Assembly (NCBI GenBank): GCA_011523385.1
Contig: WTGX01000004.1
Coordinates: forward strand, 186,001 to 250,000
Direction of reading: 5' to 3'
DNA from: Nitrospira sp.
GTDB lineage: Bacteria; Nitrospirota; Nitrospiria; Nitrospirales; UBA8639
Length of the DNA: 64,000 nt
Shown here: positions 49,444-55,787 of the stretch, piece by piece
How positions within the stretch are numbered: position 1 is the stretch's first letter
Layout of the letters: each line of letters begins with the position of its first letter
Notes under the pieces: model-generated
What the model saw: only the letters and a program-made list of their open reading frames with translations
What the model was told of the DNA's origin: nothing
The model's database searches: none
Program-made: the position numbers and the translations under genes

Positions 49444-50499
49444 TCAACGTCGGTAGCGCGGCCCAAGGGTCCGGTCTTCGTAGTTGGCAAACAGGCGTTT
49501 GGTTTCGGGATGGAGGACAAAACCTTTACCGTGCGCAATGTCCCGCGCGCGAAAGAACGGGGCGAGTTTTCCGGAAGGATCGAGGTAGGCCGCGCGAAGC
49601 GGGACCGAGCGGTTTCGATGATGGATCAGGTGACAGGACGTGGAACGGATCGAGTTGATCCAGGCGGCGATTTCGTCAGGGTTTCCGATGGAGGCCGACA
49701 GCAGCAGGAGCCGTGATTGCGCCGGAGCGAAAATAATCGTTTCTTCCCACACCACGCCCCGTTCCGCGTCGGCCAGAAATTGCGATTCATCCAGAATAAT
49801 CAAGCCCAAGGTATCCAGCCGCATGTCGATCTCGCCGCTTGCGGCATCGTACAGTAAATTCCGCAGGATTTCCGTGGTCATGATCAGGATGGGAGCCTGC
49901 GGATTGTCACGGCGGTCGCCCGTGAGAATACCGACTTGATCCGCACCGAAGAGCTGCGAAAACTCCGTCAGCTTTGTGTTTGAGAGTGCCTTCAAGGGAG
50001 ACGTGTAAATCACCGTTCGTTCGGCTTCGATGGCCCGTCGCATGGCCTCGATCGCCACGTAGGTCTTGCCGCTGCCCGTGGGGACGCTCAAGATCACGTC
50101 AGTAGTTGTCAGGCGGTCGATGGCGTCCCGTTGCCAGTCGTCAGGCTTGAAAGGCCGTGGCGGAGGCACGCCGAGCCCTTCAAGCAGCGCCTTCGTGCCG
50201 ATGGCCGGTTCGGTCGGGACGTGGTGATGCCGGGAAGGCGGGGCGGGGCGGGGCGGCGCATCGGGCTGAGGGTTCGGCTTGGCCGGTCTGTCCGGCTTGG
50301 AAGAGCGTGGAGGCTCCTGCAGGAAGGACGTGAGCGTCGTTTCGATTTCCGCCCGTTGCCCGGGTGACAGGGCCAGGAGTGATTGAATCAGCCGGGTTTT
50401 CCCCATGCGGAAGTGCCGGTGCACCCGGTTCTTCGCCAGCCGGTGAAGCAGACTGACGGGCAAGCCGGCCAAGTGTTGTGTTAATTCGTCGTTCGTCAT
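49444..50499 (-). CDS. Ski2-like helicase, RecA1 lobe as a separate protein
   Basis: A 351-residue protein that is only the first motor lobe of a superfamily 2 helicase. Motif I SVPTGSGKT (138-146), Ia TSPLKALSNTK, motif II DESQ (237-240) and motif III SAS (268-270) are present; motifs V and VI are absent. The N-terminal 110 residues are a SAP/wHTH-like helical stretch and a Pro-rich linker. The missing half is encoded 117 bases upstream (next feature), i.e. in reversed order relative to a normal helicase. The protein ends soon after motif III with no sign of a frameshift. Confidence 0.85.
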   Translation of the reverse strand: MTNDELTQHLAGLPVSLLHRLAKNRVHRHFRMGKTRLIQSLLALSPGQRAEIETTLTSFLQEPPRSSKPDRPAKPNPQPDAPPRPAPPSRHHHVPTEPAIGTKALLEGLGVPPPRPFKPDDWQRDAIDRLTTTDVILSVPTGSGKTYVAIEAMRRAIEAERTVIYTSPLKALSNTKLTEFSQLFGADQVGILTGDRRDNPQAPILIMTTEILRNLLYDAASGEIDMRLDTLGLIILDESQFLADAERGVVWEETIIFAPAQSRLLLLSASIGNPDEIAAWINSIRSTSCHLIHHRNRSVPLRAAYLDPSGKLAPFFRARDIAHGKGFVLHPETKRLFANYEDRTLGPRYRR

Positions 50500-50615
50500 G
50501 CGGCTGTTCGTTTGTTGCCTATGTGTCCAGTCTATACACCCTCCAAGGGAGAGGGTGTTGTGGAGCAGAAATTGTCAATGCCTAAGCGAACATTTACCGT
50601 TCTTCTCTGCGTCGT

Positions 50616-52601
50616 TCATGGCAATTCTTGCAGCACGTCCCGGCGCATGAGGTCCATGGCGTCTCTCGCAACGCCGGCCAGACCGGGATGGGTCGCTTTG
50701 AGTCCATGGACTTGCGAGAGATATTCCAGCGTCCTGGCCAGGAGCCGGTAGACGTCCCCTTCGGCCATGGTGGTCGGGCGAATCAGTTCGTTCCAGGGCA
50801 GGGCGGGCTCGGCGATCCACCGGTCGGCTATCGCTGCGACGTCCCACCTCAGGAGAGGCGGCTCTTCATACGCGGATAACGAGTGGGCGACCTTTCGCAC
50901 TTGTCCGAGGGTCGAGGTCAGGGCCGGATGGCGTCCGGGAAAGGAGGCCGGCCGGTCGTCGTCATGCGCAATGCTCGCCAGCACCCCGGCCAGTAAAGAG
51001 GCGGTGATGCCTTCAAATGCTCCCATCCTGATCAGTTCCGTGATGAGTAACGAATGGTTGATGCGAATCAGGCGCGCCCAGTCGCCCTCGGATGTCAGTT
51101 GGCACGCGGGCGTCAGGTAGCCGAATTTTTGCAATACCTCCACGTGTTGCTGGAAGCGGTGCCAGAGTTCGGTGCGCATGGCGTGAATGGTTTTCGTCAG
51201 TCGATGTTCTTCCTGGCGCAGCTTCAGGGCCTGCGGGTGGTCCTTTTGGCACGCCGGACGGGACGGACAGGTTGGACAGGGGAATTCGTCCTTGAGCGTT
51301 TCGGTCAGGACCGGGTTATCGGCACCGTCCTGATTGACGCGAATCGGAAGACGTCGTAAACGAGCGGGAAACTGTTCCAATGTTTCGATGGCGTGATTCA
51401 GGCTCTGGGGCGTGCACCAGGGAAACCGGTGGGACTCGGTGACGTCGATGACTTCGTCGATCACCGCGGTCACCGCGCTTGCGGGATATTCTATGATGCG
51501 TCCGCCGTTTCGCATGACGGTCAACATGGGAGCCCCTTGTCCACGGCTTCGATATTGCCGCAGGACGATAGCGTGATCCTTGGAAAGTTCGACTGCGCGA
51601 CCCGGCGTCAGGAACGCCAATTGCGCTGAGATTTCCGGTGGGTCGTGCTGCGTTTTCCGACGATGGTGCGAGCGGCGTTTCTTGGCCAGACTGAATGATT
51701 GCCACTGCGCAATCCAATCGGCGCATTCCCGTTGGCCATAGGTCTCCAGTTGCGTTTCCACGTCATCCAGCTTCGTTTCATACGCATCGGCTCGTTGGTT
51801 GAGCTGGAATTGCGCAAAACTCTTTTCCAGGATGGGTTGGATATGGTCGATGGAATGAGCTTTCAGGAGATTCAGCACCATGGGATAGGAAACGACAAAT
51901 TGACTGTCGATCGGCTCCGGGTGGTTCGTGAGCCCATTCGCAATGGGGCCGAGGTCGATGTACGGCGACGGCGTGACCACGACGAACCCCACGTAATCTT
52001 TCCCGCGTCTTCCGCCGCGGCCGGCGAGTTGTTGAATTTCATTGACGGTCAGTTCCGTGATGTCCCGGTCCTTGCGGACGCTCGATTGAGTTATCACGAC
52101 GGTGCGGGCGGGAAAATCCACCCCGGCGGCCAGGGTCGTGGTGGCGAAGACCGCATCCAGACACCCTTGACGCATGAGTTCTTCAACGGCGATTTTCCAG
52201 GACGGCAGGTGCCCGGCGTGATGGGCCGCCACACCATAGTGCTGAACCGTGGGGATCAGGGGATGGTTGGCAATACTGGGATATTCGGCAGTCATCTTGT
52301 CCAGCACGTCCGTGATGGCCGCCGACCGCGTGGGGGGAATGGGGTTCTGGCGGTGCTCGAAACACGCAATGGCTTCATCGCAGGCGCGCCGGGACGTCAA
52401 AAAGACGATGGCCGGGGTCAGACGCTGGTGTCGAAGGACGTGGAGCAGATCGACTGGGTGAATGGCCGGTGGCATGAACGGAGGAAAGTGTAACAGGAAC
52501 TTGTCGGGAGCACAAAGGAGACCGCCAATCGACGGAGACTTGGATTCGTGCAGGAGTTGCGTGGGGATGACGCTGCGATGACCCGTGAGCAGGTAACTCA
52601 T
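50616..52601 (-). CDS. Ski2-like helicase, RecA2 lobe plus DSHCT domain
   Basis: A protein of about 661 residues (start 52601; a frame to 52676 also exists) with the second motor lobe but no Walker A. VFLTSRRACDEAI (motif IV region), AAHHAGHLPSWK, ATTTLAAGVDFPAR (motif V) and QLAGRGGRRG (motif VI) are clear. The C-terminus matches the Ski2/Mtr4 DSHCT helical region (WHRFQQHVEVLQKFGYL, LTSEGDWARLIRINHSLLIT) and has a cysteine cluster CPTCPSRPAC. Together with the next gene it would rebuild one Ski2-type RNA/DNA helicase. It diverges from the DUF2791 operon. Confidence 0.85.
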   Translation of the reverse strand: MSYLLTGHRSVIPTQLLHESKSPSIGGLLCAPDKFLLHFPPFMPPAIHPVDLLHVLRHQRLTPAIVFLTSRRACDEAIACFEHRQNPIPPTRSAAITDVLDKMTAEYPSIANHPLIPTVQHYGVAAHHAGHLPSWKIAVEELMRQGCLDAVFATTTLAAGVDFPARTVVITQSSVRKDRDITELTVNEIQQLAGRGGRRGKDYVGFVVVTPSPYIDLGPIANGLTNHPEPIDSQFVVSYPMVLNLLKAHSIDHIQPILEKSFAQFQLNQRADAYETKLDDVETQLETYGQRECADWIAQWQSFSLAKKRRSHHRRKTQHDPPEISAQLAFLTPGRAVELSKDHAIVLRQYRSRGQGAPMLTVMRNGGRIIEYPASAVTAVIDEVIDVTESHRFPWCTPQSLNHAIETLEQFPARLRRLPIRVNQDGADNPVLTETLKDEFPCPTCPSRPACQKDHPQALKLRQEEHRLTKTIHAMRTELWHRFQQHVEVLQKFGYLTPACQLTSEGDWARLIRINHSLLITELIRMGAFEGITASLLAGVLASIAHDDDRPASFPGRHPALTSTLGQVRKVAHSLSAYEEPPLLRWDVAAIADRWIAEPALPWNELIRPTTMAEGDVYRLLARTLEYLSQVHGLKATHPGLAGVARDAMDLMRRDVLQELP

Positions 52602-52661
52602 GGCGCAACTCGTTGAGAATGAAAACGACAGAAGGCTGGAAAGCGTGTTGCGTTTCTCATT

Positions 52662-52710
52662 TTGGTTCTGACACACTGGGTAACTATAATAATGGGAACC
52701 TGAAGTTCCC
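52662..52710 (+). promoter_or_regulatory. Promoter and operator-like repeat of the DUF2791 operon
   Basis: A perfect -10 TATAAT (52685-52690) with a weak -35 TTGGTT (52662-52667) 17 bases upstream. Directly after it, GGGAACCTGAAGTTCCC (52694-52710) is a perfect 6-bp inverted repeat that would span the transcription start, as an operator or a 5' hairpin. Confidence 0.55.
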
Positions 52711-52754
52711 TTCCTTGTGGATCGCCTTTTGAGGCGCGTGGAAAGGAGTGATTG

Positions 52755-53525
52755 GTGGAGACCTTCGAACGGGCGTTCGGCAATACGGAAAGAGCCGCGG
52801 TTTCGACGCTACGGGCGATCAAAGACGTGGAAAAGCTGGCCAAGGCGCTACAAAAGGCAGCGAGGGAAGGGAACATCGGCGCCATCAAGCGAGAATGTTC
52901 AAGGCTGGATCCTACGCTGGATTCTCTAAAAGAAGAGGTGTCGAACGCAGTGGCCGTTTGGCCTTTCAAGGATGAAGAGGAAGAAGCATACCTCAGGGAT
53001 CACTATGCCGATGAACTTCGTAAGACCGCCGCGGAAAAGGGATTGGATCTCCGGGAACGGGACGGCATGCTGATTTCTCATCCGTCCATCGTTCGGATTC
53101 TGCCCGGTGACCGGGCCGTGAGAATCGATAAGAGTAAGAAGGCGACGCTACGACCGTCTCGCCTCACGGAAATCCTGGTCGAGCAGCAGAAAAAACCGCC
53201 GCGGTTCAGGTCGGATGCTTTCCTGAAGTCGTTATACGAGATGTACGTGCTCCTGGCGAAAGCCAAGCAAGGGACCGTTATCCCGTTAGCCATGATCTAT
53301 GAGGCGTTTACTTCCTGTCCCGGCAGCAAACGTGACTACAGCAAGATCGACTTTGCCAGGGACATCTATTTCCTGGAACAGAGTGATACGCTCTCCACCA
53401 GGTCGGGATACCGGGTCTCGTTCCCGTCTTCAACCGGCTCGAAAAAGGCCAAGGACACGTTCTCGTTCGTCGGTCCCGACAAACAGGTCGTCACGTATTA
53501 CGGAATCCAATTTTCCGGGGGCTGA
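52755..53525 (+). CDS. Unknown coiled-coil protein, first gene of DUF2791 operon
   Basis: A 256-residue soluble protein that I do not recognise. Residues 1-75 are helical with heptad character (LRAIKDVEKLAKALQKAARE), then a compact middle (HPSIVRILPGDRAVRIDKSKK) and a C-terminal part that might be a winged helix (DFARDIYFLEQSDTLSTRSG). The GTG at 52755 is preferred over the TTG at 52752 because GGAG lies 6 bases before it. The stop is 2 bases before the next ATG, so the three genes form one operon. A DNA-binding or adaptor role is possible but unproven. Confidence 0.8.
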   Translation: METFERAFGNTERAAVSTLRAIKDVEKLAKALQKAAREGNIGAIKRECSRLDPTLDSLKEEVSNAVAVWPFKDEEEEAYLRDHYADELRKTAAEKGLDLRERDGMLISHPSIVRILPGDRAVRIDKSKKATLRPSRLTEILVEQQKKPPRFRSDAFLKSLYEMYVLLAKAKQGTVIPLAMIYEAFTSCPGSKRDYSKIDFARDIYFLEQSDTLSTRSGYRVSFPSSTGSKKAKDTFSFVGPDKQVVTYYGIQFSGG

Positions 53526-53527
53526 TA

Positions 53528-54487
53528 ATGGCGCACACCATACCATTGCACGATTGGCTGCGGCACCTCGATGCCGAATACGTATCGACGTTCATCAAGG
53601 AGGGCGGTGCGTCCATCAAGTTTGCCGTGATGGAAGACGGCCGCAAGCCGCAGTTCTCCGAAGCCGTGGAGACCCGGGGCAGGGAATTGAATTACGCCGT
53701 TGTCAAACTTGACGCAGTGGAAACTAAGGTTCATATGCCCCAGGACGTGTTTTTCGGACTGGCGAAGCAGGTGGATTGGCGATTTCTGGCTCGCCTCATG
53801 ATCGTGCGGCTGGCTCGGGGGATCGGCTATGACGTCGACGCGATCAACCCCGGTGAGACGACGAACGTGTTTGAGGCCGTCGGAAAAAGAAACGGTCTTG
53901 ATTCACAATCCGTACTTCGTGAGTTGAGACGCGAATTGGAAACCAGGGTGAGCAAGGAATATCGCATGGACAAAGATTTCAGGGTGGCGATGACTTCCCT
54001 TTGCCTGTGTGAGAACGTTCGTCAGGATCAGGAATACGGCGGTCAGCCGCTGATCGATTGGTTGACGGGAACGAATACGAGGGTGAGCAGCGTGAAGTCA
54101 TTCTTCATCAATACCGGCATCAACCGGACGACGGCCAGACATTTCATTGAATCAGCCCTGTTCTGGTTCCGGCACGTGGGACACGCGGGGACGGTGATCG
54201 TCCTCGACAACTCCCGTATCATGCTGTCCCCCAACCCGAAGGACGGGGGCAGGTATTATACGAAAGCTATGGTCATGGACCACTACGAGCTTTTGCGGGA
54301 GTTCATCGACGGAACAGATCAATTGGCCGGAACGTTGATGGTGATCGTGACAAACGGCGCCTTCCTCGATGAAGACGCTCGTTCCAGGGGATTCGGCATC
54401 TACCAGGCCCTCAGGACAAGGATCATGGATGACGTCCGGGATAAAAACCTGGTGAATCCCATCGCGTCCATGGTACGACTCTCCTGA
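53528..54487 (+). CDS. BrxC/BrxD-like P-loop paralogue with degenerate ATP site
   Basis: A 319-residue protein that aligns by eye with DUF2791 ATPases but is altered at the catalytic positions. Where Walker A belongs it reads KEGGASIKFAV (24-34) with no GKS/T. The Walker B strand is TVIVLDNSR (222-230): the aspartate is kept but the catalytic glutamate is asparagine. The C-terminal stretch HYELLREFIDGT, LMVIVTNGAFLDEDARSRGFGIYQALRTRI resembles the conserved DUF2791 end. It probably partners the intact ATPase encoded next, as a pseudo-ATPase subunit. Confidence 0.75.
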   Translation: MAHTIPLHDWLRHLDAEYVSTFIKEGGASIKFAVMEDGRKPQFSEAVETRGRELNYAVVKLDAVETKVHMPQDVFFGLAKQVDWRFLARLMIVRLARGIGYDVDAINPGETTNVFEAVGKRNGLDSQSVLRELRRELETRVSKEYRMDKDFRVAMTSLCLCENVRQDQEYGGQPLIDWLTGTNTRVSSVKSFFINTGINRTTARHFIESALFWFRHVGHAGTVIVLDNSRIMLSPNPKDGGRYYTKAMVMDHYELLREFIDGTDQLAGTLMVIVTNGAFLDEDARSRGFGIYQALRTRIMDDVRDKNLVNPIASMVRLS

Positions 54488-54503
54488 AGCAAAGACGGAC
54501 CTC

Positions 54504-55787
54504 ATGAACGTTGAGACAGACAAGAAAGATTTGTTGACCTGCAGGCGGGCGCTGGAAGGGTTGCGGAACGGTGTCCCGAACGAGGCAGCCGTCAAGATCC
54601 TGGGTTGTCACCAACCGCAGGCAGAAAACCGGTTTCGGGAACTCCTGTCCCGGGCCATGAAACTGGACCGTCCGCCTTCCGGTGCTTTGGGCATGCTGGT
54701 TGCCGGTGATTTCGGTACGGGAAAATCGCACCTGCTCTCCTACCTGGAACATCAGGCGTTGTCACAAGGTTTCGTGTGCAGCAAATTGACCATCAGTAAA
54801 GAGACCCCTTTCTATAACCTGGAGAAGGTATTCAAGTCCGCTGTGGACCATGGACGGATACCGGACCGAACCGGGCAGCTCATGGGAGAACTCGGACTCC
54901 GGCTGAAAAGTTCTTCAGGGGCGTATGCCCGTTTTTTCCGGTGGGCCCATTCCGAACAGAACGGACTGCATCGTATCTTTCCTGCCAGCCTGATGGTTCA
55001 CGAACGGGCAAATGATTTTGAACTGATCAGCAACGTCATCTCGTTCTGGTCGGGCGAGCGGGTCAGGGTGTCCACGCTCAAAGACGGTCTCAGACAAATA
55101 GGGAAGTTGCCCGACTATCCCTTCAAGGCGCCGAAAGCGAAGGAACTACCCCCGCAACGGTTACGTTTTGCCACGGAGTTGATAAAAGGGGCCGGGTATA
55201 ACGGCTGGGTCGTCCTGTTGGATGAACTCGAATTAGTGGGTTCGTATACGCTGCCCCAAAGGGCCAGGTCCTACGCGGAGCTTGCCCGCTGGTTGGGAAA
55301 GGTCGAAGATGAAGCGTGTCCGGGGCTCGTCGTCGTCGGCACGGTGACGAGCGATTTCACCGCGGCCGTTTTGGATGATTCGGGCAAACAGGACCGCCAC
55401 AAGGCAGCCCAATGGTTGCGTTCACGTGGAGATGACGTCGTGGCAGCCGGGGCTGAAATGGGCATGACGATTCTTGAACGGGAAACGACTTCCTTAACCT
55501 CTCCGACTGACGAAGACGTGAACGCCACCATCGAGAAACTGAGAGAGATCTATAGCGTTGCTTACAATTGGGACGCTCCGCGAAAAGAAGGAAAGGCGGG
55601 CGGGGCGGGTTTTCAAGGCAGGATGAGGTACAAGGTGCGAGCGGCCATCAATGAATGGGACCTGTTGCGCCTGTACCCGAATGCGAGCCCTGAAACAGAA
55701 GGCACGGAGTTCAGTTCCAGATATGAAGAAGTTCCTGAACTGGAGCAGGAGACCAACGACCAGGCCGATGAGGGCGAAAGCCGGTAG
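54504..55787 (+). CDS. DUF2791 (BrxC/BrxD-like) ATPase
   Basis: A 427-residue P-loop ATPase of the BREX ATP-binding type. ALEGLRNGVPNEAAVKILGC at the N-terminus, Walker A GDFGTGKSHLLSYLE (68-82) and Walker B WVVLLDELELVG (235-246) are hallmarks of BrxD and its relatives. The C-terminal 30 residues are acidic. It is third in the operon, 16 bases after the degenerate paralogue. BrxD works with helicase BrxHI in type 2 BREX; here the nearest helicase is the divergent split Ski2-like pair. No BrxA, BrxB, BrxL, PglX or PglZ is present. Confidence 0.88.
   Translation: MNVETDKKDLLTCRRALEGLRNGVPNEAAVKILGCHQPQAENRFRELLSRAMKLDRPPSGALGMLVAGDFGTGKSHLLSYLEHQALSQGFVCSKLTISKETPFYNLEKVFKSAVDHGRIPDRTGQLMGELGLRLKSSSGAYARFFRWAHSEQNGLHRIFPASLMVHERANDFELISNVISFWSGERVRVSTLKDGLRQIGKLPDYPFKAPKAKELPPQRLRFATELIKGAGYNGWVVLLDELELVGSYTLPQRARSYAELARWLGKVEDEACPGLVVVGTVTSDFTAAVLDDSGKQDRHKAAQWLRSRGDDVVAAGAEMGMTILERETTSLTSPTDEDVNATIEKLREIYSVAYNWDAPRKEGKAGGAGFQGRMRYKVRAAINEWDLLRLYPNASPETEGTEFSSRYEEVPELEQETNDQADEGESR

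Follow-up and report, generated by a model that had tools for sequence, protein, structure and literature searches.

Results

The locus lies in a 64,000-nt stretch of Nitrospira sp. DNA (GCA_011523385.1, contig WTGX01000004.1, positions 186,001-250,000, forward strand), referred to here as the window, in whose own numbering all positions are given. Two separate reading frames follow one another on the minus strand. The upstream gene (50616..52475, 619 aa, start MPPAIHP, stop at 50616) encodes motor lobe 2 of a helicase together with the C-terminal domains, and the downstream gene (49444..50499, 351 aa) encodes an N-terminal helical domain, a proline-rich linker, motor lobe 1 and a conserved C-terminal tail; a gap of 116 nt (50500..50615) separates them, and their frames differ. 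A preliminary description had assigned lobe 2 and a DSHCT domain to the first gene and lobe 1, with Walker A and DESQ, to the second, and Pfam matches bear this out: the lobe-2 ORF matches Helicase_C (PF00271, E 2.3e-05) and DSHCT (PF08148, E 6.6e-22), and the lobe-1 ORF, in which PTGSGKT and DESQ are present, matches DEAD (PF00270, E 9.8e-21). The window genome has only one DSHCT gene. Its named relatives, at 89-96% identity, are five MAGs assigned to Nitrospira or Nitrospirales.

Where does the lobe-2 gene begin? Its open frame reaches back to 52676 (52676..50616), and the start at 52601 given in the preliminary description is too far upstream: all 78 of the 78 distinct lobe-2 homologues share a start of the form M-P/A-P-x-I-H-P, which corresponds to 52475 in the window. 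Some of the extra residues upstream of 52475 belong to the end of a neighbouring, truncated gene for a chloride channel. What is left of its C-terminal part lies at 52527-52616 (-), before the lobe-2 gene, and the frame is open into this remnant. Comparison of the upstream sequences of the 78 homologues brings out a conserved, promoter-like stretch directly before the ATG (TTTGTGC...TGTTACACT, 52487..52515, minus strand), which a generic scan did not pick up. A similar element is found shortly 5' of the lobe-2 ATG in many members of families f1 and f2, about 11 nt away in the window, and because it sits so close to the ATG, it suggests that the lobe-2 mRNA of these two families may be almost leaderless.

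Beyond the remnant, a BREX-like cassette at 52752-55787 (+) occupies the site that holds a voltage-gated chloride-channel gene in relatives of the same genus. It begins with an ORF of no assigned family (52752-53525, +) and continues with BrxC/BrxD-like ORFs at 53528-54487 and 54504-55787 (+). The first BrxD-like ORF (53528-54487, +) matches its profile only from about position 133 and, read by eye, has GGASIKF where the ATPase P-loop is expected; possibly it is inactive and partners the second ORF. In other genomes giant ORFs lie between or next to the helicase genes (L092:5226-10811 in G012, 1862 aa, with a weak Calx-beta match; L108:3056-12601 in G010, 3181 aa), and the region around the halves seems to be a repeated site of insertion. 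In family f3 the lobe-2 gene shares 26 nt with the end of a gene for a glgC-like ADP-glucose pyrophosphorylase (L116:1239-2504, L165:626-2098 and other loci).

The motifs of the motor are divided between the two proteins. Lobe 1 carries motif I, the Walker A sequence PTGSGKT (50062..50082, minus strand, as for all features of the two proteins), motif Ia (SPxKALSN), motif II (DESQ, 49780..49791) and motif III (SAS, 49690..49698); Walker A and SAS are invariant in the alignment, SPxKALSN is conserved, and motif II is DExQ (DEAQ in family f4), not the DExH of single-chain relatives. Motifs IV to VI, the arginines of motif VI included, are on the lobe-2 protein, as is expected of a DSHCT helicase. 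Motif V (TTTLAAGVDFPART, 52101..52142) is invariant or nearly so, the arginines of motif VI (QLAGRGGRRG, 52002..52031) are invariant, and by analogy with other SF2 helicases these arginines should reach ATP held by lobe 1. Further along the lobe-2 protein, a CPTC...C cluster (51249..51278), whose three cysteines are invariant, is a possible metal site, and the DSHCT domain (PF08148) follows at 50631..51098. The N-terminal helical domain of the lobe-1 protein (50317..50499, about 60 aa) resembles SAP/Rho_N domains by eye only, and a Pfam search with the first 60 residues gave no match at E<5; family f4 has a lobe 1 without this domain. At the other end of the protein the tail LHPETKRLF..YE..TLGPR (49447..49510) is conserved.

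Alignment with single-chain helicases locates the cut. In a profile match to Mtr4 (4u4c numbering), lobe 1 corresponds to residues 46-258 and the lobe-2 protein to residues 322-608 and 777-991, and the stretch left uncovered between the lobes is the linker region. The two halves match residues 76-255 and 313-946 of a HelY-like 952-aa ORF from Nonomuraea, in which the lobes are in canonical order. The Nonomuraea linker reads ...INPTLMRV...GRRGYGRPQRSRPPDRVQVIEKL, lobe 1 of the window ends ...LHPETKRLF...TLGPRYRR, and lobe 2 begins MPPAIHPVDLLHVL. Read by eye, this comparison puts the cut within the inter-lobe linker, and the conserved C-terminal tail of lobe 1 is likely to be the linker stump. 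A split at this linker with permuted order was the central proposal of the preliminary description, and it is upheld by both alignments and by the order-wide layout described below.

The split pair is found throughout the order Nitrospirales. Of all 235 Nitrospirales genomes searched, 209 gave a lobe 1 (35/37 genera) and 222 a lobe 2 (36/37 genera). In a set of 41 relatives, lobe 2 was present in 41 and lobe 1 in 40, nearly always adjacent and with lobe 2 first. Among 153 high-quality genomes (completeness 90% or more, contamination 5% or less), the halves are kept or lost together across species: 147 have both, two have neither (G137 and G254), three have lobe 2 only and one has lobe 1 only. 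Contig ends can account for a missing half, as in G299, where lobe 1 starts at the end of a contig, and in G035 (99% complete), where lobe 1 was undetected and the lobe-2 contig ends some 160 nt past the gene. The lobe-2 match in G270 is weak only. The last of the four genomes with one half, G230, is a genuine instance of lobe 2 without lobe 1. No intact single-chain gene in normal order was seen in the Nitrospirales relatives searched. DSHCT was not found in sampled genomes of Nitrospirota outside the order, where the lobe-1 profile detects only distant helicases, the best being a single-chain Ski2-like protein in G369, and the viral contigs searched held no relatives of either half.

Lobe 1 lies directly after lobe 2, on the same strand, at 68 of the 78 distinct loci read, and this layout is seen in single-contig genomes such as G009, G010, G142, G170, G174 and G176. 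An assembly artefact or a decaying gene, for which the unusual gene order is the sole argument, is already refuted by these data and by the strong purifying selection described below: conservation over some 200 genomes excludes chance or artefact, and an assembly inversion is excluded because independent assemblies agree, some of them as one contig. We give this explanation practically no weight.

The ten non-adjacent loci are those of G012, four f4 genomes, G230 and G223, and three at contig ends. In family f4 the halves either fall on separate contigs or have over 13 kb between them, 7.2 kb that include the 1862-aa ORF lie between them in G012, they are 25 kb apart in G224, and they are on two contigs in G223. 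Because one family keeps the halves apart and insertions part them elsewhere, linkage is not required. In G224, G230 and G223 a sugar-epimerase gene lies directly 3' of lobe 2 (L162:4369-5334 in G224, L118:4426-5403 in G230, L121:4251-5225 in G223), likely the start of a polysaccharide block; past it, lobe 1 is found farther along or on another contig in G224 and G223 and is missing in G230.

Where the halves are adjacent, up to 195 nt lie between the stop of lobe 2 and the start of lobe 1. At the other extreme the two genes overlap by 4 nt in different frames (GTGA/ATGA), as they do in each of the six f2 genomes and in some members of f1 and f3 (G013, G040, G147, G170). Might a frameshift or read-through during translation make a single, circularly permuted chain of the two ORFs? 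The overlaps in some lineages would allow it, and the frame of one relative (L111) continues through two TAG codons. However, the frame varies, the spacing runs from -4 to 195 nt and on to kilobases, and the f4 genes are on different contigs; because the spacing varies and some halves are far apart, such a product cannot be general. The sole apparent fused ORF, a 981-aa frame in G182, was rejected as a natural fusion since the assembly has a run of N at the junction. We therefore regard a joined chain as very unlikely.

Both halves are under strong purifying selection. Across four families, little or no variation is seen at the residues of motifs I, Ia, II and III in lobe 1 and of motifs V and VI in lobe 2. 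Within the genus, lobe 2 has a dN/dS of 0.07-0.13 and the core of lobe 1 one of 0.07-0.14, with looser selection on the N-terminal region of the lobe-1 protein. The earlier claim that the halves are intact and not decaying thus holds, with motifs invariant and dN/dS at about 0.1. The distance matrices of lobe 1 and lobe 2 are correlated (73 genomes, r = 0.87), which fits common inheritance; shared species history would produce such a correlation as well.

Do the halves work together or apart? If apart, lobe 2/DSHCT could be an ATP-independent nucleic-acid binder or scaffold, and lobe 1 could bind nucleotide as the partner of another molecule. In G230 (99% complete) the lobe-2 gene is intact and lies within a 320-kb contig, whereas lobe 1 was undetected anywhere in this genome, G035 possibly presents the same case, and the halves are unlinked in several lineages. 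Because the lobe 2 of G230 and G035 looks intact, without clear decay, lobe 2 may serve some purpose by itself, or these two assemblies may lack lobe 1. Against separate roles, both chains conserve motifs that have a function only where two lobes form an ATP site (GSGKT, DExQ, motif V and GRxGRR), and both halves are present in 147 of the 153 high-quality genomes. We consider separate roles unlikely.

Discussion

The two genes probably encode a two-subunit DSHCT helicase of superfamily 2 (SF2), Ski2/Mtr4/HelY-like, with permuted gene order and an ATP site formed across two chains, a reading to which we assign a probability of about 0.8. Since the lobes sit on two ORFs, lobe 2 first, throughout the order, it is a variant and not a standard member of the SF2 DSHCT helicases.

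The ancestral protein would have been a single chain of lobe 1, linker, lobe 2, winged-helix/ratchet and DSHCT. A break within the inter-lobe linker would have divided it in two, and the pieces would have come to lie in reverse order on the chromosome. The most economical route would be a tandem duplication followed by complementary loss. In the enzyme that we envisage, the lobe-1 protein would provide Walker A, DExQ, motif III and the small N-terminal domain, binding ATP through Walker A and DExQ, and the lobe-2/DSHCT protein would provide motifs IV to VI and most of the nucleic-acid path, its DSHCT/ratchet part guiding the nucleic acid. The arginines of motif VI would be offered from the lobe-2 chain to the ATP on lobe 1, so placing the ATP site between the chains. 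One enzyme on two separate proteins would need its working form to be assembled from two chains. The chains are presumably translated one after the other, and in several lineages the 4-nt stop/start overlap may couple their translation, which would favour assembly as the chains emerge. The product would be an RNA or DNA translocase.

SF2 helicases work by closing two RecA-like lobes, joined in a single polypeptide, around ATP and nucleic acid. We think it likely that Nitrospirales have a natural, conserved SF2 helicase whose RecA lobes of one ATP site are on two independently encoded proteins, kept order-wide even where the genes are unlinked, and whose association could regulate the motor. 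If so, the covalent tether between RecA lobes would be dispensable in an enzyme used by a whole order, a motor could readily be switched on by mixing two proteins, and the locus would clearly exemplify gene fission combined with permutation. A search of the open-access literature, a scope that excludes most subscription journals, found no paper describing the split helicase.

How does the split enzyme compare with known helicases? The match to the exosome-associated Mtr4/DOB1 and Ski2/SKI2W covers nearly the whole core: lobe 1, lobe 2, the C-terminal helical region and DSHCT. Those proteins are single chains with lobe 1 first and DExH, whereas the Nitrospirales have two chains, the lobe-2 gene first and DExQ, and no similarity to the Mtr4 arch was detected in the segment that takes its place. 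The HelY-like Nonomuraea protein gives a near end-to-end match, including a cysteine cluster before DSHCT (HPCHGC there), but it is one polypeptide with a basic linker where the Nitrospirales proteins are cut, and it is without the N-terminal helical domain. The 718-aa protein of G369, from the same class and another order, shares Ski2-like lobes 1 and 2 and the C-terminal region; however, it is one ORF in canonical order with DECH and KALSNQK, and is a more remote relative, matching the lobe-1 profile at E 1.9e-49. Throughout, the split family has DExQ and, in motif V, GVDFP (GVDFPA against GINMPA), where single-chain relatives have DExH and GINMP or GIHMP, one change per chain, and the N-terminal helical domain is extra in the split family. 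Multi-domain helicase proteins encoded by two genes are known from the reverse gyrase of Nanoarchaeum equitans and from Cas3'/Cas3''. Those splits part the motor from another domain, whereas the Nitrospirales cut falls between the two RecA lobes of one ATP site.
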